Origin: Deltaproteobacteria bacterium | GTDB taxonomy: Bacteria; Desulfobacterota; Binatia; UBA1149; CAITLU01 | Reading direction: 5' to 3' | DNA: 42,644 nt | NCBI GenBank assembly: GCA_016218925.1 | Contig: JACRCR010000004.1 | Location: 1 to 42,644, forward strand | Part shown: piece by piece, positions 490-13,497 of the stretch | How the letters are laid out: every line of letters begins with the position of its first letter | Numbering within the stretch: position 1 is the stretch's first letter | Notes under the pieces: model-generated | The model's input: only the letters and a program-made list of their open reading frames with translations | Told to the model about the DNA's origin: nothing | The model's database searches: none | Made by a program: the position numbers and the translations under genes

Positions 490-3400
490 CTACTCCAGCA
501 GCGCCATGATGTCTTCGCGCGTGACCGACGCGGCTGCCGCGGCGGTGCCCGACAGCGCGGCTTCGGCGATCTGCCGCTTGCGGCGCTGAAGATCGATCAC
601 CCTCTCCTCCACCGTATCCTTGGCGACCAGCCGATAGACGATCACCGGACGGTCCTGGCCGATACGGTGGGCACGGTCCGCGGCTTGATCCTCAACGGCC
701 GGATTCCACCACGGATCGAGCAGGAACACGTGGTCGGCGGCGGTCAGGTTGAGGCCGGTGCCGCCGGCCGTCAGCGAGATCAGCAGCACCGGCGGTCCTT
801 CGGTGCTTTGAAACGCATCGACGACGGCGCCGCGGTCGCGCGTGCTTCCGTCCAGGCGCGTGAAGCCGATGCCGCGCTCGGTGAGGTGCGGCTCGACACG
901 GTCGAGCAGGCCGGTCCACTGAGAGAACACCAGCGCCTTGTGGCTGTCGGCGACGACGTCGTCGAGCGCATCGCACAGCGCTTCGATCTTCGATGAGGTC
1001 GGCGCCTGACGGCCCGGCAGCAGGCCCGAGTGACACGCCGCCTGGCGCAGTCGCAGCAGCGCTTCCAAGGCGGCCAGCACGCTGGAGCCGTCGGCGAGCT
1101 GGCGAACGATATCGGCGCGCGAGGCCATCCGGATCGCGTTGTAGATGGCGCGTTCCTCGCCATCGAGTTCGCAGTAGAGCACGGCCTCGGTGCGCGGCGG
1201 CAGTTCGGTAGCGACCTCGCGTTTGAGACGCCGCAGCAGGAACGGACGAATGCGCCGGCGCAGCCGCTCGGTCACCGCGACGTCGCCCTCGATCATCGGT
1301 TTCTCGTAGCGTTCTCCGAAGTCGCGCCTGCCGCCGAGCAGACCGCGATTGGTGAAGTGCATCTGACTCCACAACTCGTCGGGACGGTTCTCGATCGGCG
1401 TGCCCGACAGCGACAGCCGGAAACCCGCGCGCAGCCGGTAGGCGGCACGCGCCACCTGGCTGTCGGGATTCTTGATGGCCTGGGCCTCGTCGAGCACGAT
1501 GATGTCCCAATCGGCCTCGGCCAGCGTGTCGATGTCGCTGCGCAGCGTGGCGTAGGTAGTCAGCGTGACGTCGGCGTCGCCCAGTGCGCGGCCGGGACCG
1601 TGATAGAGGCCAACGGAGAGGCCTGGTCGGAAGCGCTCGATCTCGCGGGTCCAGTTGTGGATCACGCTGAGCGGGCACACCACCAGCGTGTGTCCCCTGA
1701 GCACGCACAGGGCCTGGATGGTCTTTCCCAGCCCCATGTCGTCGGCGAGGATCGCGCCGAGTCCGGCGTCGCGCAGCCGCGCGAGCCACACGACGCCGGT
1801 GGCCTGATAGTGGCGCAGTTCGCCGTTCAGATCGGGACATATCTTGGCGACCGCCGCCGCGGTGGCAGCGTCGGTTGTTGCCGGCGCCGCCGGTCCAGCC
1901 GGCAATGTGGCCTCGCTCGGCGTCGCGACGCCGCCGCGCACAGGCTCCGCAGCCGTCACCGCTTCGAGCAACGGTCGCAGCCGCGCCAACTCGAAAGGCT
2001 CGGGCGAATCGAGCGCCTCGCACAGTTCACCGAGGATCGGCAGCGCCGCCTTCGGCACTTTTCCTTCGTTCTCGTCGCGCGCCGCGAGCAGGTCGGCGAC
2101 CAGGTGGCCGTAGAGATCCAGCCACCCTGCGGGAATGCGCGCGAAGCCGCCGTCACTGAGCGGCACCAGTCCGATACCGTCGTGCCACGCCGCGACCACT
2201 GCATCGGCCGACGCGGTCGCCCTCCCGGCCCGCCGCGACCTGTCCCTGCCACGTCTGGCGCGGCCGCCGGGAGCCTCGAAGATCAACGTGAATTCCTCAC
2301 CCCTGACGCTCAGGCGGGGCGCGAGTTCGACGTGTCGATTGGCGCCGCGTAAAGCCCGGCCGGGCGTACCCTCGGTGCGTGCGCGGCCCGAGTCGAACGC
2401 GTCGAGGTCGGAGAGGAAGCGCGCCGCGTCGACCGCGGGGAAGTGCACGCGCCGCCCCGGCGCAAGATTGAGTTCGTCGCGCAGGCGCAGCAGCAGCGCT
2501 CTCTCCTTCTTCTCGTCGCGGCGCGGAACGTCGCCCTTGAGGTGTTTGAGCCGCCCGTCATCGACGCGCGCCACCGGCGGATCTCCATAGACCAGCAGCG
2601 GCAGTACATCGATGCCGTGTTCGCCGCTGCGGCGATCGGGGAAGTCGATCTCGAACTTGATCCACGGCTCGAGCGTGAGCTGATGCTTGGGAAGGCGCTT
2701 GGTCTTGATCTCGACCGATATGTGGCGCTCGAGCTCGGGGATCACGGTGCCGACGAGGTCGGCCATCTGCCCGGAACCGAACACCTTGCGGAACGGCAGA
2801 CGCTCCCAGGTGTCGCCGAAGCGTGCGTGGGCGCCGAACGGATGCAGCGTGTCTCCGCTTCTCAGTACCCCGGGCGCGACGATCTCGGTGACCGCGGGGT
2901 CGGGTTCGACCACGACCTCGACCGCGCCGTCGGCAGCGTCGATCACACGCGCTCTGGGGAAGAGCGGTTCGCGCGAGGCTCGAACGCTCTTTCCGTCCAG
3001 CATGAGGTCGGTTACGCCGACCAGCGCGGGCAGCAGCGCGGTGGCCTTGTCGAAAGAGAGCGGCGCTTCGAGCAAGCGCCCGATCATGCGGTCCAGCGTC
3101 AGGTCGCCGTGGGTCGGCGCGAATGTCAGCTCGGGGTTGCCACGCGCGATCAGATCGACGATCGGCTGCTCCAGACGCCGCGGCGGCGCACCGGCGTCGA
3201 CCAGGAAACGCTCGAGGATCAGGCCGCGCGGTCCGTGACTGAGCTGGTAGCGGACGTGGCCGTTGCGCTCGTCGGTGTGGAACAACTTGTCGGAGGCGTC
3301 CTTCGAGCGTGTCAGCGCGATCAGGCAGGCGGCGACGTGTTCGCAGACCTCGAAACGCCCGCGACAGTCGCAGTCCCACTCTTCGTCGTCGGGATACAGC

Positions 3401-3591
3401 GTGGCGGTGGGCGCGATCAGGTTCCCGTGCGACGGCACGCGGAACGTCCACATGTCCGGTTCGCGCGTCTGCCCGGCTACCGCGCCGGCGCGAGCGAGTT
3501 CCACGCCCTTCGACCACAGCCCCACCGGACACGCGGCCTTGGCGGCGTCGAACAATCTCTTCCAGTTCACGTCACCGGTCATTTCAGGCAT
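490..3591 (-). CDS. SWIM zinc-finger SNF2-family helicase
   Basis: This is a 1033-aa SF2 ATPase of the SWI2/SNF2 group, expected to translocate on double-stranded DNA and remodel DNA-protein complexes. Near residues 70-85 a SWIM zinc finger is visible ([14 protein letters not shown]-x-C...C-x-H). The motor lies in the last 450 residues: Walker A DDMGLGKT (about 619), DEAQ box (about 699), LSGTPIENR, and a C-terminal lobe with [15 protein letters not shown] and [12 protein letters not shown]. Start ATG at 3591 overlaps the VWA gene stop by 8 bases (ATGCCTGA), so translation is probably coupled. It is the last gene of a four-gene operon. The family call is firm; the cellular role is unknown. 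Confidence 0.93.
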
Positions 3592-6500
3592 GGGTGATGC
3601 GACGATAGATGCGCACGAGTTCGCGGGGAAGCTCGGTGATGTCGTCTATGATCGCGTATCGCGAGGTCGGGCACATGTCGCCGAGGTAATCGTGGCCGGC
3701 CGGATCGACGGTGATGCAGAAAGTCTGCATGCCGCGCTTTTCCAGTTCTCGCAGTGCCTGCATGGTATCCCGGATCCCGTAAACGTTGGAACGGCGGTCA
3801 TCCCCGTAGTCGAAGTCCTGTGGAAAACCGTCGCTGAGCAGGATCAGGTGCCGGGCGCGTGCGGTGGTGCGCGCGAGTTTCTCGCCGGCGTGGCGCAGCG
3901 CCGCGCCCATGCGCGTCGAGCGCTTGGGGCGGATGCCGCCGAGGCGGCCTTTGACCTTGTCGCTGAGGCGTTCGGCGAACGACTTGACCTGGTAGACCTC
4001 GACGTTGTCGCGGCCATGGCCGGAAAAGCCGTAGATCGAGTAGGCGTCGCCCATCTCCTCGAGCACCTGAGCGAGCACCACCAGCGTGTCCTTGGTCAGG
4101 TCGATGACGCGGCGGGGGGCCGGGCCGGTGGCGGCGGCTTCGAGGGGCAGGGGCTCGTCCGTCGAAGCGCTCATGTCGATCAGGAATAGCGTGGCCACGT
4201 CGCGCTCTTCGGGCTTGCGCGCGACATAGAGGCGGTCGCTCGGGGTGCGGCGCGTGCGGCGATCGGCGTGGGCTTCCACGAGCGCGTTGAGGTCGAACTC
4301 TTCGCCGTGCTCCATGCGCGGAACCCGGCGAAGCTGCTGGGGCCTGAGCAACTGGAAGTCGCGCTTGATCTGCTGCACCAGTTCGTCGGAGCGATCCAGC
4401 GCCTGCGCAAAGTACTCGCCGGCGTCTTCTTCGCCGTCGAGTTCGTGCAGCCGGCACCAGCGCCTGCGGTAGTCGCCGATGCGGTGATCCCATTCGTCGT
4501 AGAAGAAGTCCCCGCCGGCGGCCTGGCGGGTCAGCCAGGCGCGTATCGCTGCGACGTCTCCGCTGGCGATCTTGTCGCGCAGCGCGCGCAACTGGTCGGC
4601 GGGTACCTTGCCGAGCAGGTCGGTGATGTACAGCCCGAGGCCTTCCTCGATGCTGCCCTGGGCTTCGGTGATCTTCAGATCGCCGCCGCGCTCGAGCATC
4701 GAGCGCAACTCTTCCAGGCTCAGCGGCCTCCCGGCGCCGGGCGGCATGCCGTCGTCGTCGCTGAGCTCGAGTTTGAGGCCGGTCTCGGCGGTCTGGTCGG
4801 CCAGCGCGCGGGTCGGATCGGGGCGCCAGGGGGCGGTGTTCTCGCCGCGCGCGCCGCCCTCGAGGTGCTCGAACGGATCGACGACGGTGGCGCCGCCCAT
4901 GTCGGTGAAATCGACCTCGTCGCCGTCGCCGCCGTCGCCGCCGCGTGCCTCGGCGAACGCGAGGCTTCCGTAGTACGCGATGGTCAGGCTCGCGCTGTCG
5001 TAGACGCTGGCCTCGGGTGCGCGCAGCAACTCGACGCTCGAAACCAGGAACTCGCCCTGCGCGCGAAGGCGCGGTTCGAGTTCGGTTACCTGCCGGCAGC
5101 CGACGCTGAGGTGAAACAGCGCGTCCAGCAGCCGTTCGTCGTAACGGTCCTGAGCGCCGGGAACGATGGTGGCGGCGTAGTCGCGGCCGAGCCGCGCCAA
5201 CTCGCCGCGCAGGCCCGGGAAGTCGCGCCCGAGCGCGGCGTCGATGCGCACGCCGTCGAGCATCACGAACAGCGCGCTGGCCAGCAGCGGATTGGGAAAC
5301 CGCGCCAGGAAGCCGGCGACGTCGCGCGCGCCCGGATCCTGGTCCGCGCTGCCGTCCTCGTCGCAGGGCGGCGTCCAGCCGCGCCGTTCCAGTTCGTCCA
5401 GATCGAACGCGTAGGTGCCGTATTCGTAGCGACCGGCGATGTGCGAGGCGATGATCTTGTAGAGCGCCTGGTTGTCTTCGAAGGTCGCGAACAGGTCGAT
5501 GCGCTCGGGAAGCCGCAAGGCCGGGTCGTCGGCCCCGGCCAGCGGCGGTCGCATCCACAGGCCGGGCGCTGCGCTGAGTTGGAAGGAACGGCGCGACATC
5601 ATCGTCAGATAGCGCCGCAGCATGCCTTCGACTTCTTCGAACGAGACCGCGGCGCTGCGTTCGACCAGCAGCTTGTGCGAGGTACGGCTTTCGAGGTGGA
5701 AGTGCGCGAGCGCGGCCTCGCGGTGGTTGCCGGCCAGTTCGAGGCCGCGCTCCACCCACAGCGCCACCCCGTCGCGGCCTCCCTGTTCGATCGCCCGGTC
5801 CATCGTGCGCAGATAGGCGCACAGCATCGCGGGCGCATGTTCTCCCACGCTGCGGGCGTGGCTCAGCAGGATAGGCAGTTCGATGGCGGGAACGCCGTGC
5901 AGGATGCCGGGCAGCAATGCGATCGCGTCGGGCAGGCCTTCGTCGCCCACCGCTGCCGCGGCCAGCGCGAGCAGCTCGACCGCGAGATCTTCGCCGACAC
6001 ACGCGGCCAGCGCCGGTACGACTTCGAGCATCCGCCTGGCATGCGCGGCGCTGGTGTACGCGGCGCCGGCACACAGCATCATCGCGCTCGATGCCGCGCG
6101 CGGCGACAGGCGGGTCAGCGCCGGCGGGACTTCGGGCGGCTTGGGGCTGCGTCCGGCGGTGCCGATGGTGGCTATGAGTTCGGCCCAGGCATCGACCGCG
6201 CCGGCGTCGAGCAGCGGCATGAGGCGCGAACTCGAAGCGAGCAATGCTTCGGCCAGGAACTCGCTGCGCCAGCCGCCGCGTGCGAGCAGATCGAAGGCGG
6301 CGTCTCTCCAGGCCTCGATCAACGGCGCCGCAGGGGCGGCATCGGGCGAAGACTTGGCGGCGGCTTCCAGGAAGGCGGTGGCGAGGCGACGCGAGCGCGC
6401 CGCCAACGCGCGCACGGTCTGCGACCACTCGCGGCGAACCTCGTCGCTCCACCCGGCTACGGCGCCGGGCTCCAGCTTCAGGAAGGCCAGTGTGATGTCG

Positions 6501-6763
6501 CGCGACGCCGCCGGATCCTGTGTGACGTCAGCGAGCAGTTCCTCCCAGACGCGGTAGACCTCGTCGCCGGTTTCGGCGGCGCCCGCGGCCTGCACCACGA
6601 AGGCATGTGCGAGACTCACCGATTGCGCCGCAGCGGCGTCGCCGCGCTCGAGTATGCTGCGGCGAAGGTCCTCGGGAAGGCGATCCAGTACGGCCAGGGC
6701 GCGAGCCCCGTCGACACTGTCGCGAAGATGACGGCTTTCAATCCAGGCGCGGGAACCGGCCAC
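3584..6763 (-). CDS. NorD/CbbO-type VWA domain protein
   Basis: The protein is 1059 aa with a C-terminal von Willebrand A domain like NorD and CbbO. These partner with MoxR-class AAA+ ATPases to remodel or activate client enzymes. The MIDAS metal site is visible: D-M-S-A-S at 863-867, the Thr of KRSTR near 950, and LLSDGFPQD near 977. The long N-terminal part is Ala- and Leu-rich and helical, consistent with HEAT/ARM-like repeats, followed by an acidic linker around residues 600-650. Start is GTG at 6763, 9 bases after the MoxR gene stop. No nitric oxide reductase or RuBisCO gene lies in the window, so the client is not the classical one here. Confidence 0.85.
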
Positions 6764-6772
6764 GGCCGCGTG

Positions 6773-7573
6773 CTACGCGAAGATCGCGCTGACCAGTTCG
6801 GCGATCGCCGACTGGGTCTGTCGATCGTCGCTCAGGGCCCGAACCACCGTGGCTTCGCAGGCCCGATGCGTCGACATGCCCTGGGCGATGAGCTGCCCCG
6901 CGTAGACCAGCAGGCGCGCCGATACGCCTTCTTCCAGGCCGCTCGACTTCAGTTCACGGACACGTTCGCCGAGGTGGGCCAGATCCATCGCGACGTCCAT
7001 CGCCACGCCGCTCTCGTGGGCGATGATCTGGGCTTCCTTGTCGCGCGGCGGGTAGTGGAATTCGAGGGTGACGAAGCGCTGCCGCGTCGAGGGCTTGAGG
7101 TCCTTGAGGACCGACTGATAACCGGGGTTGTAAGAGACCACCAGGATAAAATCGGGATGCGCGGTGACGATCTGCGCGAGCTTGTCGATCGGCAGGATGC
7201 GCCGGTGATCGGTCAGCGGATGGATCAGCACCATCGTGTCTTTGCGCGCCTCGACGATTTCGTCGAGGTAGGCCATGGCACCGACCCGTACGGCCTGGGT
7301 CAGAGGGCCGTCCATCCATATCGTCTCGTCGCCGCGTACCAGGTAGCGGCCGACCAGATCGCTGCCGGTGAGGTCTTCGTTGCAGGCCACGGTGATGAGC
7401 GAGTTGGGCCGCTCGGACGTTTCGGGCAGGAGCTTCCACGCCATGTACTCGACGAAGCGGGTCTTGCCGCAACCGGTGGGGCCCTTGAGCAGCACCGGCA
7501 GCTTGCGGAGGAACGCGGCCTCGAAGACCTCAACTTCGTCGCCGAGCGGAAGGTAGTAGGGAGCTTCGCTCAT
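6773..7573 (-). CDS. MoxR-family AAA+ ATPase (NorQ/CbbQ type)
   Basis: At 266 aa this is full length for the CbbQ/NorQ branch of MoxR AAA+ ATPases, cytoplasmic hexamers that work with a VWA partner as chaperones or enzyme activators. Walker A is GPTGCGKT at 31-38. Walker B is AYLDE with D104-E105. The conserved stretch [18 protein letters not shown] follows the CbbQ pattern. ATG start at 7573; 7 bases separate it from the upstream TPR gene and 9 bases from the downstream VWA gene. Adjacency to the NorD-type gene strongly supports a joint complex. The substrate cannot be read from the sequence. Confidence 0.9.
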
Positions 7574-8999: not shown

Positions 9000-9048
9000 A
9001 AAATCGTGGTGCCGGGGCCGGCCTTCAATGGCGGCCGACCCCGGCACC
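9000..9048 (-). terminator. Strong intrinsic terminator after the CPFC DsbA-like gene
   Basis: On the minus strand a 16-bp stem (arms 9033-9048 and 9008-9023, one G-U pair) encloses a 9-base loop, and TTTT follows four bases later (9000-9003). It lies 13 bases past the stop codon of the DsbA-like gene at 9061. Confidence 0.75.
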
Positions 9049-9060
9049 GAGCAGCAAGGC

Positions 9061-9825
9061 TCAGGACTTCTTCTTGGCCTTGATCTCTTCGTCGATGATC
9101 GACTTGTAGAGTTCGAACGAACGGCCAGCCGGCTGCTTGCCGTTGATGTAGAAGGTCGGCGTGCCGCGCACTCCCACCGTTCCGGCCTGCTTCATTTCGT
9201 CGGTGACGGCGCTGGCGGTCTCGGGCGCCGCCAGGTCGGTCTTGAACTTCTCGAGGTCCAGACCGAGCTGCTTGGCGATTTCCTGGTACTTGTCGTCCGA
9301 CAGCGCGCGCTGGTTCTCGAAGAGCTTGTCGTGCATCTCCCAGAACTTGCCCTGCTTGCCCGCCGCCACCGCGGCTTTGGCCGCAGGCATCGCGTTGGGG
9401 TGGAAAGGCAGCGGGTAGTTCTTGAAGACGAATTGCACGTCGTTCGGATAGGCCTGGAGGATCTGGTGGACGAGGTCCTTGGCCTGGCTGCAGAACGGGC
9501 ACTGGAAGTCCGAGAACTCGACGATCGTCACTGCCGCGTCCTTGGGGCCGGTCGTGGCCGAGTTCCCGACAGTCACATCCCAGCGCTTGTTGGGATCCGG
9601 CGCGTCGGCCGCGGGTCGTGCCGCAGGAGCGGACGCGACCTTGGTCGCGAGTTCCTTCTGGGACTTGGCGAGGTCATCGAGCTTGGTGACCACGTCTTTT
9701 TGCTGGGCCTCCATCCGATCGACGGCTGCTTTGATGTCGCTGACTTGTTGCGGATCGGTACAGGCCGAGAGCGCCAGAGCGCTGAAGGCAGCCAGCGAGA
9801 GAACTGCACGGGTGGACTTGGTCAT
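9061..9825 (-). CDS. DsbA-like thioredoxin-fold lipoprotein with CPFC active site
   Basis: The protein is 254 aa. ATG at 9825 is chosen because GGAGG lies just upstream and a clean lipoprotein signal follows (LALSAC, lipid-bearing C22). An upstream in-frame extension to 9912 lacks these signs. Residues 27-62 form a heptad-like coiled coil (IKAAVDRMEAQQKDVVTKL). The DsbA/thioredoxin domain follows, with active site F-Q-C109-P-F-C112 and the cis-proline loop RGTPTFYING. It should make or rearrange disulfide bonds in the periplasm. Its closest relative in the window is the next gene, which is the same length and has TGA in place of the C109 codon. Confidence 0.9.
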   Translation of the reverse strand: MTKSTRAVLSLAAFSALALSACTDPQQVSDIKAAVDRMEAQQKDVVTKLDDLAKSQKELATKVASAPAARPAADAPDPNKRWDVTVGNSATTGPKDAAVTIVEFSDFQCPFCSQAKDLVHQILQAYPNDVQFVFKNYPLPFHPNAMPAAKAAVAAGKQGKFWEMHDKLFENQRALSDDKYQEIAKQLGLDLEKFKTDLAAPETASAVTDEMKQAGTVGVRGTPTFYINGKQPAGRSFELYKSIIDEEIKAKKKS

Positions 9826-9895: not shown

Positions 9896-9927
9896 AAAAG
9901 GGGGACCGCCACGTTGGGCGGCCCCCC
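9896..9927 (-). terminator. Intrinsic terminator between the two DsbA-like genes
   Basis: Minus-strand arms GGGGGGCCGCC (9917-9927) and GGCGGTCCCCC (9900-9910) pair over 11 bp with one G-U. The loop is six bases and TTTT follows (9896-9899). It lies 43 bases beyond the stop of the TGA-containing gene, so the two paralogues are probably separate transcripts. Confidence 0.75.
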
Positions 9928-9970
9928 TCGCGAAAACGAGTCGCGGCACGCGAGCGCGCCGCGACTTCTC

Positions 9971-10732
9971 CTATGACTTCTTCTTGGCCTTGATCTCTTC
10001 CTCGATCATCGACTTGTACAGATCGAACGAGCGCCCGGTCGGGATCTTGCCGTTGATGTAGAAAGTTGGCGTGCCGCGCACGCTGGCCTTTGCGGCCTCC
10101 TTCATCTCGTCGGCGATGAACGCCGCCGTCTCGGGCGACTCCATGTCGGTTTTCAGCCGATCCACGTCGAGGCCGATTTCCTTGCCCCAGATCGCGTACT
10201 TGTCGGGACCCAGCTCTTTGGCGTTCTGGAAGATCTTGTCGTGCATCTCCCAGAACTTGCCCTGCTTTCCGGCAGCCACGGCGGCCTTGGCCGCAGGCAT
10301 CGCGTTGGGATGGAACGGCAGCGGGAAGTTCTTGAAAACGAATCTTACGTCGTTCGGGAAGGCTTTGAGAACCTGATCCACCAAACTGGTGGCTTGTGAG
10401 CAGAAGGGTCATTGGAAGTCCGACCACTCCACGAACGTGACGACAGCGTCGGCGGGGCCTTTCGTGAACGAATTGCCTACCGAGACGTCGTAGCGCTTGT
10501 TGGGGTCGGGGGCTTCGGCCGCGGGCTTGGCCCCGCCGGTACCGGCTTTCGCCAGGATTTCCTTCTGGCTCTTGGCGAGCTCATCGAGCTTGGTCAGGAC
10601 GTCTTTTTGTTGGGCCTGGATCTCGTCCACCTTGCTCTTCATCTGACTGACTTCCTGCGGGTCCACGCAGGCTGCCAGGTAGACGCTCAGCACGGCGGCG
10701 AAAGCCGTGGCCGCTTTAGCCGATCTGCGCAT
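9971..10732 (-). CDS. DsbA-like selenoprotein (UPFC active site), lipoprotein
   Basis: I read one 253-aa protein through an in-frame TGA at 10409-10411 (residue 108). Upstream codons give ...FVEWSDFQ, the TGA follows, then PFCSQATSLVDQVLKAFPND... in the same frame to TAG at 9971. The neighbouring paralogue has C-P-F-C at the identical place, so TGA replaces the catalytic first cysteine and the site becomes U-P-F-C. The rest is intact: lipobox cysteine C22, coiled coil 26-60, resolving C111, cis-Pro loop RGTPTFYING, and the same KAKKKS end. ATG at 10732 has GGAGG upstream. Other genes here end in TGA, so the code is not generally reassigned. A nonsense mutation is the main alternative. No sel genes lie in the window. 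Confidence 0.85.
10378..10411 (-). promoter_or_regulatory. SECIS-like hairpin directly after the in-frame TGA
   Basis: On the coding strand, 16 bases after the TGA, arms CCACC (10388-10392) and GGTGG (10378-10382) enclose the loop AGTTT (10383-10387). The loop begins 21 bases after the TGA and has G at its second position. As I recall the bacterial SECIS model, the apical loop lies about 16-37 bases from the UGA with a G among its first two bases. A lower stem (GACC at the TGA with GGTT near 10370) is possible but needs a large asymmetric internal loop. The Cys paralogue has only a weak 4-bp GGAC/GTCC pairing at this place. Confidence 0.55.
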
Positions 10733-10771
10733 TCGTACCTCCGGTTTGTGCACTGTTGGCGATGGGGAGGC

Positions 10772-10800
10772 ATTGTTTAGGCGCCTGGGCGGGGTGTCAA
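10772..10800 (-). promoter_or_regulatory. Sigma-70-type promoter for the selenoprotein gene
   Basis: The minus strand has a perfect -35 box TTGACA (10795-10800), a 17-base spacer, and AACAAT (10772-10777, four of six matches) as -10. The predicted transcript would start near 10765 and have a leader of about 32 bases before the GGAGG and ATG at 10732. Confidence 0.5.
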
Positions 10801-10899
10801 GGCGGATTTCCCCGAAGCGCGCGGCGCGACCCGGGCCTCGACCGGGCCGGCGTTGGCCCGGCGCGGCGCGTCCACCTTCGACCCCGAGGGCTCGCACCT

Positions 10900-11952
10900 A
10901 TGGTGGCGCTGGCGTTTCGCTGCTATGCACTGACCCTCGTGCCGTCCGCCCAGACCACTGAGCCGTCCATTTCCTCGGGTGCTTCCTCGGGTGCGCGCCG
11001 CGCCGCCAGCACGCTCGCCAAGGTGGGTGTGTCGGCGCTCGCGCTGGGGATCGTGTGGCGCGAGGTCGATTCGGCCGCGTTGGTGCGCGTCTTCGCGCAG
11101 ACCAACCCATGGACGGTGGGGCTGGTGCTGATCATCTATCTGGCCGGTCAGGTGCTGACGGCCTATCGCTGGAAGTTCATTTCGCAACGGCTCGGATTCG
11201 ACCGCTCGCTGCGCGAAATGACGCGGATCTATTTCATCGGGATGTTCTTCAACCTCTTCGGGCCATCCACCCTTGGCGGCGACGTGGTGCGGTCGCTCTA
11301 CCTCGGCGCTTCGGACGGACGCCGCGCGGTGGCTTTCAATACGGTGATCTTCGACCGCGTCTCCGGGCTGGCGATGCTGGTCCTGGTTGCGGTGGCAGCG
11401 ATCGCGCTGTTCGGGCGCTTTGGCTTGCCGTGGCCGGTGGTGGCGGTGGCGGTGGCGGCCGGCGTGGCGCTGACAGTGGGCTGGTGGGTGGTGCCGCCGC
11501 TGGCGCGCCGGGTCCTGGCCCGCGATAGCCGCTGGCTGCGCCTGATAGAGCAGGAACTCGGACCTTTCTGGGGCGACCGCCGTCTGATCCAGCGGGCGGC
11601 CTGGGTGTCGGTCGGCTTCCACGTGCTGCAGGTCCTGTCGCTGATCCTGCTCGGCAGTGCGATATCGATGCGCGTGGATTGGCGTTACTACTTCATCTTC
11701 CATCCGCTGGTGACGGTCCTCAGCGCGCTGCCTCTGACTCTGGCGGGGCTCGGCATTCGCGAAGGCGGCTATCTGTGGTTCCTGCACCGCCAAGGCGTCG
11801 ATGACGAGACGGCGGTAGCGTTCGGCCTGTTGTGGTTCGTGGTGCTGACGGTTTCGTCGCTCACCGGAGGTCTCGTGTATCTCGCCGGAGGCACCGCCGT
11901 TCCTGCTCTGCGTGGAACCAGGACCGACGTGGAGCGCGCGCTCCCGGAGTGA
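10900..11952 (+). CDS. Flippase-like integral membrane protein (LPG synthase TM / UPF0104 family)
   Basis: The protein is 350 aa from ATG at 10900, which has GAGGG about nine bases upstream; GTG at 10939 is an alternative. It is polytopic, about eight helices. It carries the family signature of the lysylphosphatidylglycerol synthase transmembrane region (AglD/UPF0104): a helix followed by AYRWKFISQRLGF, then FFNLFGPSTLGGDVVRSLYL, an amphipathic stretch, and LPLTLAGLGIREGGYLWFL. There is no soluble synthetase domain, so it is the membrane part only, thought to move or bind lipid-linked substrates. Its substrate is unknown. A second family member follows at 12127. Confidence 0.85.
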   Translation: MVALAFRCYALTLVPSAQTTEPSISSGASSGARRAASTLAKVGVSALALGIVWREVDSAALVRVFAQTNPWTVGLVLIIYLAGQVLTAYRWKFISQRLGFDRSLREMTRIYFIGMFFNLFGPSTLGGDVVRSLYLGASDGRRAVAFNTVIFDRVSGLAMLVLVAVAAIALFGRFGLPWPVVAVAVAAGVALTVGWWVVPPLARRVLARDSRWLRLIEQELGPFWGDRRLIQRAAWVSVGFHVLQVLSLILLGSAISMRVDWRYYFIFHPLVTVLSALPLTLAGLGIREGGYLWFLHRQGVDDETAVAFGLLWFVVLTVSSLTGGLVYLAGGTAVPALRGTRTDVERALPE

Positions 11953-11979
11953 GGCTGCTGCGTCGTCTCTCCACCGGCC

Positions 11980-12012
11980 GGGGCGAGTGCCCGGTGCCGC
12001 GGCGCTTGCCCC
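11980..12012 (+). other. 12-bp hairpin between the two flippase-like genes
   Basis: GGGGCGAGTGCC (11980-11991) pairs with GGCGCTTGCCCC (12001-12012) over 12 bp with two G-U pairs and a 9-base loop. No T-run follows on either strand. It could attenuate transcription or stabilise the upstream mRNA end; it is not a standard intrinsic terminator. Confidence 0.35.
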
Positions 12013-12126
12013 GCACGCCCTCCCCGCTCATATTGCGCGTTTCGCGCCCGCGGTAGGCGCTGCGTCCCCGGTACATCGCGGGCGTCGCCGCTTCGGCGCA
12101 TTCCACACTGCAGGGGTCCCGTAATC

Positions 12127-13497
12127 ATGAAGAAGGCGCTCATCACGGTCGTGAAGACCCTACTGACCATCGGCATCTTCGTGTCGCTCTTCGCCGAATT
12201 CGGCGGCGGCACGGTGGCGGTGTCACGCAGCGGATTCGCGGACGGGACCATCTTCTACAAGGCCAACCCCGCGATGCCAGGGCTGGTCGGCCGTATGAAG
12301 GCCCGGCTCAGCGGTTCGACGCTTCCCGACCCTCACGTTGCGCTGGCAGGGGACGACGTCTGCACTCTGGCGATCAAGGGCGAGACGGTCTTCGTTCGCA
12401 CCGAGGCCGGCGAGATCGTCAAGCTGCGTGCCACGCACAACTGCGTGGACGGCAAGCTCGCCCAGGTGCTGGCCGGCGCCGACGACGATCGCAAGGTGCC
12501 GCTTGCCGAGACCTCCGGTACCACCGTGTGGGTGGAGAAGCAGGGCGTTCAGCGCGTGCCGATGACGGCCGCAGATCTGTGGACCGAGGTGCGCGCACTG
12601 GACCTGGGCGTCTTCATTCCGTGGGTGGCGTTCGCCACCTTCATCAAGTTCCTGGGCATCCTTGCCAACATCCTTCGCTGGCAGGTCCTGCTCAAAGGCC
12701 AGCAACTCCACTTCACGTTCGGATGGCTGACCTCGAGTTATTTCGTCGGACGTTTCTTCGGGATCGTGATGCCGTCGACGCTCGGTCTGGACGGCTGGCG
12801 CCTCTACGACACGATCCGTGAGTCGCGCAAGCCCGTCGAATGCACGACCGTACTCGCCATCGAGCGTATCATCGGGCTGGTCGGCCTGCTGGCGACGATC
12901 CTGCTCTTCATGCCGTTTGCGGACCTGAAGGGGCGCGACCTCGCCGACATCGTCGAGGCGATGGCAGTGCCGCTCGGAGGCGGGCTGCTGTTCGGCATGT
13001 TGCTGCTGCTGCGACCGGAGTTGTTTGCGCCGCTGATCCGCCTGGTGCCGGTGGCCAAGATCCGCAAGTTCCTCGACAACACCATTCACAGCGCGACCGC
13101 CTACTCGAGCCAGCGCGGCGCGCTCGTGATCGCGCTGGCTTGCGCCGTGTTCGCGCAGATCACCACGATGGCCATGTATTTCGCCAACGCGATGGCCCTG
13201 CAGGTGGAGGGCGTCTCGGTGCTGCAGGTGTTCTACGCGGCGGCGGTGATGACGCTCGGCACCTTCATCACGCCCACCGCGGCCGGTGAAGGCGTGCGCG
13301 AGCTGGTCTTCGTCGAACTGCTCGGCGGCCACGTGCCTGCTGCCAAGGCCTTCCTGATCGGCCACGTCGGGTTCTGGATCGAGAAGCTTCTGCTGTCGTT
13401 CCAGGGCGGCATTTTCCTGATCTGGGCGCCCAAGTCCTACCAGCGCGTGACCCGGGAGGACTTAGAACGTCTCAAACTGGAGACCGCCCGCGGCTGA
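12127..13497 (+). CDS. Flippase-like membrane protein with extracytoplasmic insert
   Basis: The protein is 456 aa. After one N-terminal helix (ITVVKTLLTIGIFVSLFAEF) comes a soluble stretch of about 130 residues. A polytopic region of the same UPF0104/LPG-synthase-TM type follows (NILRWQVLLKGQQLHFTF, SSYFVGRFFGIVMPSTLGLDGWRLYD, and TPTAAGEGVRELVFVELLGG near the end). The insert sits between helix 1 and the helix starting at residue 160, so it probably faces the periplasm. Family call is good; substrate unknown. It lies 174 bp after a shorter homologue. ATG at 12127 has only a weak AGGGG element. Confidence 0.8.
   Translation: MKKALITVVKTLLTIGIFVSLFAEFGGGTVAVSRSGFADGTIFYKANPAMPGLVGRMKARLSGSTLPDPHVALAGDDVCTLAIKGETVFVRTEAGEIVKLRATHNCVDGKLAQVLAGADDDRKVPLAETSGTTVWVEKQGVQRVPMTAADLWTEVRALDLGVFIPWVAFATFIKFLGILANILRWQVLLKGQQLHFTFGWLTSSYFVGRFFGIVMPSTLGLDGWRLYDTIRESRKPVECTTVLAIERIIGLVGLLATILLFMPFADLKGRDLADIVEAMAVPLGGGLLFGMLLLLRPELFAPLIRLVPVAKIRKFLDNTIHSATAYSSQRGALVIALACAVFAQITTMAMYFANAMALQVEGVSVLQVFYAAAVMTLGTFITPTAAGEGVRELVFVELLGGHVPAAKAFLIGHVGFWIEKLLLSFQGGIFLIWAPKSYQRVTREDLERLKLETARG

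Follow-up and report, generated by a model that had tools for sequence, protein, structure and literature searches.

The window analysed here, that is, the whole stretch of 42,644 nucleotides, is contig C239 of a draft genome (4.66 Mb in 245 contigs, 94% complete, 1% contaminated). On its minus strand, at 9971..10732, it carries a gene for a putative selenocysteine (Sec)-containing, DsbA-like lipoprotein of 253 amino acids with the motif U108-P-F-C111. The reading frame extends from an ATG at 10732, preceded by a GGAGG ribosome site, to a TAG at 9973-9971, and its sole interruption is a TGA (10409..10411, minus strand) at residue 108, in the minus-strand run GAC TTC CAA TGA CCC TTC TGC that reads D F Q U P F C. 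On the same strand, at 9061..9825 (ATG at 9825, stop at 9063-9061), lies an intact, Cys-containing tandem twin of 254 amino acids, with CPFC and the lipobox LSAC, which has TGC at the column of the TGA and is 66% identical to the Sec protein over the full length. The first-pass annotation had placed UPFC at 10400-10411, with the TGA exactly where the tandem paralogue has the first cysteine of C-P-F-C, the frame open on both sides and the remainder of the protein conserved; all of this is reproduced, to the base (UPFC at 10411-10400, TGA at 10411-10409).

The twins are separated by a terminator-like hairpin of 13 pairs (9898..9929, minus strand) and so need not share one transcript, and a long GC-rich hairpin just 3' of the Cys twin (9008..9048, minus strand) is a probable terminator. 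Upstream of the Sec gene, a promoter-like site, TTGACA-17-AACAAT (10772..10800, minus strand), is recognisable by its match to the consensus only. The genes next to the Sec gene encode a TPR/zinc-ribbon protein and LPG-synthase-like proteins, none of which points to a substrate; two consecutive LPG-synthase-TM-like membrane proteins are encoded divergently from the Sec gene, at 10756-13497 of the plus strand. Elsewhere in the window (490-7573, minus strand), consecutive genes encode a SNF2-type helicase, a large protein that weakly matches VWA and a CbbQ/NorQ-type AAA ATPase, a set of MoxR/VWA-like genes adjoining a helicase.

Conservation of the in-frame TGA

The order to which the window is assigned was found to include UBP10_UBA1149, which has been placed in the Binatota order UBA1149 (Murphy et al., 2021; PMC8262859), so that the window itself would belong there; relatives of the protein are present in all 13 genomes of our order-level set. 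Exactly one TGA, always in the residue-108 column, and no other stop is found in ten copies that come from nine of these genomes; G003, G004, G007 and G009 have Cys copies only. Beyond the order, there are 13 more Sec copies that share one type of SECIS-like hairpin, under record labels that read Nannocystaceae, Myxococcales, Deltaproteobacteria, uncultured proteobacterium or simply bacterium, one of them (L057) from the strain Paraliomyxa miuraensis SMH-27-4, as well as L055 and two divergent copies from the same phylum as the window, L139 and L142, that have the TGA at the residue-108 column too. Many other homologues have Cys at this column, so that the alignment proposed as a check in the first-pass annotation, with either Cys or TGA to be expected, returns both. 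In the plasmid collection, only distant relatives, with less than 60% identity, were detected.

That independently assembled genomes of related species share this TGA column shows that neither chance nor sequencing error explains it. Furthermore, for the nearest pair, which consists of the window and its congener, the codons ahead of the TGA give a dN/dS of 0.113 and those after it 0.119, and a value of about 0.12 on the far side, as on the near side, indicates that the part 3' of the TGA is translated and constrained. In a single genome, and in a draft with this many contigs, a tandem duplicate with a stop in its frame would have the classic look of a pseudogene, but the view that the TGA is a true stop, in a decaying copy of the Cys twin or through an assembly or sequencing error, is ruled out for practical purposes by the single TGA conserved in the order's ten copies and, beyond it, in distant bacteria and by purifying selection that is equally strong on both sides of it, and is further contradicted by the complete Sec machinery of the genome.

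The selenocysteine machinery

Each of selA, selB, selD and tRNA-Sec (selC), for which the first-pass annotation proposed a search, is present in the genome. The tRNA-Sec on contig C104 scores 69.5 bits against an Rfam cut-off of 47 and ARAGORN identifies it as tRNA-SeC(tca). Two TIGR00474-matching pieces of selA (L009 and L010) lie at the ends of contigs C149 and C131, and the overlap of these ends comprises 141 identical bases, from which it follows that selA is one gene split by a contig break and that the two contigs adjoin. On C149, selB adjoins selA, and beside selB there is one of two selD genes that score above the cut-off, without an in-frame stop. The other selD, on C54 (L018, G000:C54:82337-83263), contains its own in-frame TGA, in SHGGGUGCKIG, and would be the second selenoprotein of the genome; as read from the sequence, this TGA is an independent sign of the putative decoding of UGA as Sec in this cell.

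Across the order, tRNA-Sec is above the cut-off in 11 of the 13 genomes and selB is present in 12. The genome without selB, G007, also has no tRNA-Sec and encodes a Cys copy only; in G009 (87% complete), which has a Cys copy, selB is present and tRNA-Sec was not found. Outside the order, selB was detected in 12 of the 13 genomes with Sec copies that were checked, the exception being the draft that contains L062.

A SECIS-like hairpin downstream of the TGA

According to PMC1088965, the bacterial SECIS is a hairpin directly 3' of the UGA with a G in a small apical loop. The candidate in the window is the apical hairpin CCACCA-GUU-UGGUGG (10378..10392, minus strand), with the loop from 22 nt after the UGA, which was recognised by comparison across copies: a hairpin with a GU(U/C) loop is located at exactly 22 nt past the UGA in all ten Sec copies of the order (consensus CC(A/G)CCA-GU(U/C)-UGGUGG) and in L055, and was not seen at the corresponding place in the eight Cys copies of the order. 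The 13 Sec copies outside the order have a different hairpin, GAGGGUCG-GUC-CGACCCUC, with the loop 19 nt after the UGA. In this Myxococcota-type helix, five sequences have G-C in place of A-U at one position, both partners of the pair having changed; in the helix of the order, covariation is weak and the changes are mostly one-sided. A loose rule (stem of at least 6, loop of 3-4 with G as one of its first two bases, located 16-25 nt 3' of the codon) is passed by 22 of the 26 Sec copies compared with 17 of the 230 Cys copies, counts that are uncorrected for relatedness. Under this rule, the Sec copy of L038 has only 4 apical pairs, with an interrupted helix beyond, and neither the 22-nt nor the 19-nt hairpin was found after the TGA of L139 and L142, in which any SECIS would have to take a different form.

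Taken by itself, the hairpin in the window is not unusually stable (z of +0.6 to +0.8), 5.8% of synonymous recodings give a stem as long, and a scan of the region against Rfam for a known element yielded chance-level matches only. The fold of the single sequence being insignificant, the case for a SECIS rests on comparison, from which a hairpin directly after the UGA with a G in a small apical loop emerges, though only weakly so from the one sequence. The occurrence of two hairpin types at different distances from the codon suggests separate recruitment in two lineages.

Thus, given the shared TGA column, the Sec machinery, the SECIS-like hairpin and the equal dN/dS on both sides of the codon, we have to regard it as near certain (with a probability of about 0.95) that this gene encodes a genuine selenoprotein in which UGA108 is read through as Sec, with putative incorporation of selenium. 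The claim of the first-pass annotation that Sec occupies the catalytic position thereby stands, with the machinery present, Cys or TGA at this column in the homologues and the hairpin kept in the Sec copies.

Evolution of the Sec and Cys forms

The gene order of the window, with the Sec gene, a GC-rich hairpin that is usually followed by a T-rich run, and the Cys twin on one strand, recurs in three relatives (L051, L023 and L038). The identical order is found in four Myxococcota-type loci, L057, L060, L061 and L084, for which the stretch examined begins within the 3' end of the Sec gene. This recurrent arrangement brings to mind redundant isozymes switched by the supply of selenium, such that the Sec form is made when selenium is available and, when it is not, translation ends at the UGA and the Cys form, transcribed separately, takes its place. 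Such a switch, which would add to the reading of the gene as a selenoprotein instead of competing with it, can be put forward only tentatively: several genomes (G005 and G010-G012) keep the Sec copy alone, without a Cys twin, and a regulatory element was not found.

The Sec label has to change 14 times on a rapidly built tree of 90 proteins, and at least 10 of these changes are forced by well-supported branches. The Cys copies L032, L033 and L038 nest inside the Sec clade of the order, hinting at changes from Sec to Cys or at gene conversion. In G008 (L038), the Sec and Cys twins are mutually closest on the tree, unlike those in the genus of the window, a pattern suggestive of gene conversion or a recent Sec/Cys exchange. 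A more elaborate cluster, in Baikal-deep-G131 (Myxococcales; L114:3681-6170), consists of four consecutive DsbA-like copies in the order Sec-Cys-Cys-Sec, the hairpins that follow the two TGAs being identical.

Fold and possible function

The protein matches the Pfam families Thioredoxin_4 (PF13462; 86.7 bits against a gathering score of 23.2) and DSBA (PF01323; 71.5 against 25.6). Its lipoprotein signal peptide (10667..10732, minus strand) was identified from the sequence and by a lipobox scan, with the lipobox LAAC ending at the acceptor Cys22; similar lipoboxes were detected by the scan in the relatives from the order, and acylation is predicted. The structure model (mean pLDDT 83.5) consists of a signal helix, a helix of 38 residues and a confident DsbA domain. 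The 38-residue helix (residues 25-62; 10547..10660, minus strand) is predicted with moderate confidence, at a pLDDT of about 60-71, and has a heptad-like hydrophobic periodicity of 3.5 residues, as might be expected of an oligomerisation stalk. The description of the protein as lipid-anchored and coiled-coil, already given in the first-pass annotation, is supported by the lipobox and by this helix, respectively. The best structural matches of the model are BdbD (Z 23.8), 3gyk, and the ScsC proteins of Caulobacter and Proteus.

The ScsC-like anatomy points to an oligomeric disulfide isomerase or reductase. Under the scenario that we favour, SelB and Sec-tRNA would decode UGA108 with the aid of the hairpin just downstream, and the product would be exported and, judging from its anatomy, lipid-anchored at Cys22, so as to display a DsbA-type thioredoxin domain, with the active site Sec108-Pro-Phe-Cys111, on a helical stalk. 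The selenolate of Sec108 would then attack disulfides in substrates, and the resulting mixed selenosulfide would be resolved by Cys111. Re-reduction of the Sec protein, which, by the same anatomical analogy, may be an oligomer, would fall to a membrane protein of the DsbD/ScsB type whose gene lies elsewhere in the genome. The downstream Cys twin, with its own terminator, would be a separately controlled version, plausibly for times of selenium scarcity or for a more oxidising role, if the anatomy is a guide to such a division of labour.

Partners for either direction of the chemistry exist, given that the genome encodes both a protein with DsbD_N, DsbD_TM and Thioredoxin_7 domains, on contig C200, and a VKOR fused to a DsbA-like Thioredoxin_4 domain (L155:1408-2691), on the same contig as selB, selD and most of selA. 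The latter location and the closeness of the single-chain fold to BdbD are compatible with Sec being read in what is mainly a DsbA-like oxidase that is re-oxidised by the VKOR-type protein. However, this protein has a DsbA-like domain of its own, the stalked anatomy fits the trimeric isomerases, and selenols generally favour reducing or isomerising chemistry. On balance, we consider the oxidase unlikely and lean, by a modest measure, toward an isomerase or reductase.

A broader scenario joins these threads: a pair of stalked, lipid-anchored disulfide isomerases, encoded in the order Sec gene, terminator, Cys twin, would have arisen at least twice, in Binatota and in Myxococcota, with hairpins that differ and lie at 22 and 19 nt, respectively, and would respond to selenium as a redox pair, Sec and Cys having been interchanged repeatedly both within the twins and between them. 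In its entirety, this scenario is speculative and rather improbable.

Several implications follow from the selenoprotein itself. A well-supported subfamily of selenoproteins is added in poorly studied phyla, and standard gene callers would truncate its Sec members, in this case at residue 107. The adjacent Sec and Cys copies in several lineages, together with the many changes on the tree, are a natural test of the benefit of selenium in extracytoplasmic disulfide chemistry, and the same pairs could test whether Sec-to-Cys reversion is as rare as has been stated (PMC13188914).

Relationship to known systems

A literature search, with incomplete coverage, returned nothing that describes this subfamily, the tandem arrangement or selenoproteins in Binatota, no work that joins selenocysteine with Nannocystis, no relevant one that joins it with Myxococcota, and none that uses the term 'selenolipoprotein'. 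Selenocysteine and Binatota do come together in a study of methane cycling in sponges in which selenocysteine is mentioned once.

The closest named family is NF041057, the Rcas_1661 family thioredoxin-like (seleno)lipoprotein, which in a 2026 review corresponds to a DsbG-like UxxC selenoprotein (PMC13188914). The protein from the window aligns with it over nearly the full length, including the signal region (E 2.4e-24); UxxC in a lipid-anchored thioredoxin fold is common to both, and the family name allows for Sec and Cys forms. The scores of the Sec form (86.2 bits) and of the Cys twin (110.7) are far below the cut-off of 190 bits, and no member above this cut-off was detected among 297 genomes of the phylum, which indicates a separate, related subfamily. 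Many NF041057-like proteins with a single in-frame TGA are scattered across the phylum (G037:C137, G247:C59, G267:C9, G296:C1, G070:C39 and others); the column of the TGA aside, these probably make up an under-annotated set of selenoproteins.

UxxC selenoproteins of the DsbA-like (COG2761/PF01323) and DsbG-like (COG1651) types are known from the Sargasso Sea and GOS surveys of 2005-2008 (PMC1088965, PMC1794560, PMC2398784). Compared by description, in the accessible portions of these papers, they share with the present protein a DSBA-family domain, Sec as the first residue of the CxxC motif, a large number of Cys homologues and a downstream SECIS, and the descriptions in those portions include no lipid anchor, stalk or Sec/Cys tandem.

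The catalytic domain of the window protein is structurally closest to BdbD and to the thioredoxin-like oxidoreductase 3gyk, which differ in having a Cys active site and align over a range, 74-250, that excludes the stalk. The likeness to the trimeric ScsC proteins of Caulobacter (7rgv) and Proteus (4xvw/5id4/5idr) (PMC8900818, PMC5524982) extends further, to an N-terminal helix before a domain of the same catalytic fold (Z of about 20-21) and to a DsbD/ScsB-like protein in the genome. In ScsC proteins with a long N-terminal region, that helix joins the subunits of a trimeric isomerase, which ScsB maintains in the reduced state (PMC8900818). By contrast, the window protein has Sec instead of Cys, a lipid anchor, only 18-24% identity to ScsC and a trimer that is hypothetical, and its gene is outside any scs cluster and not beside scsB, the DsbD-type gene being on C200. 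The suggestion of the first-pass annotation that a lipid-anchored, coiled-coil DsbA-like version beside its Cys twin is unusual has to be narrowed, given that UxxC proteins of the DsbA/DsbG-like kind are known and NF041057 was already named; the apparent novelty lies in the Binatota and Myxococcota subfamily, with its recurring order of Sec gene, terminator and Cys twin.
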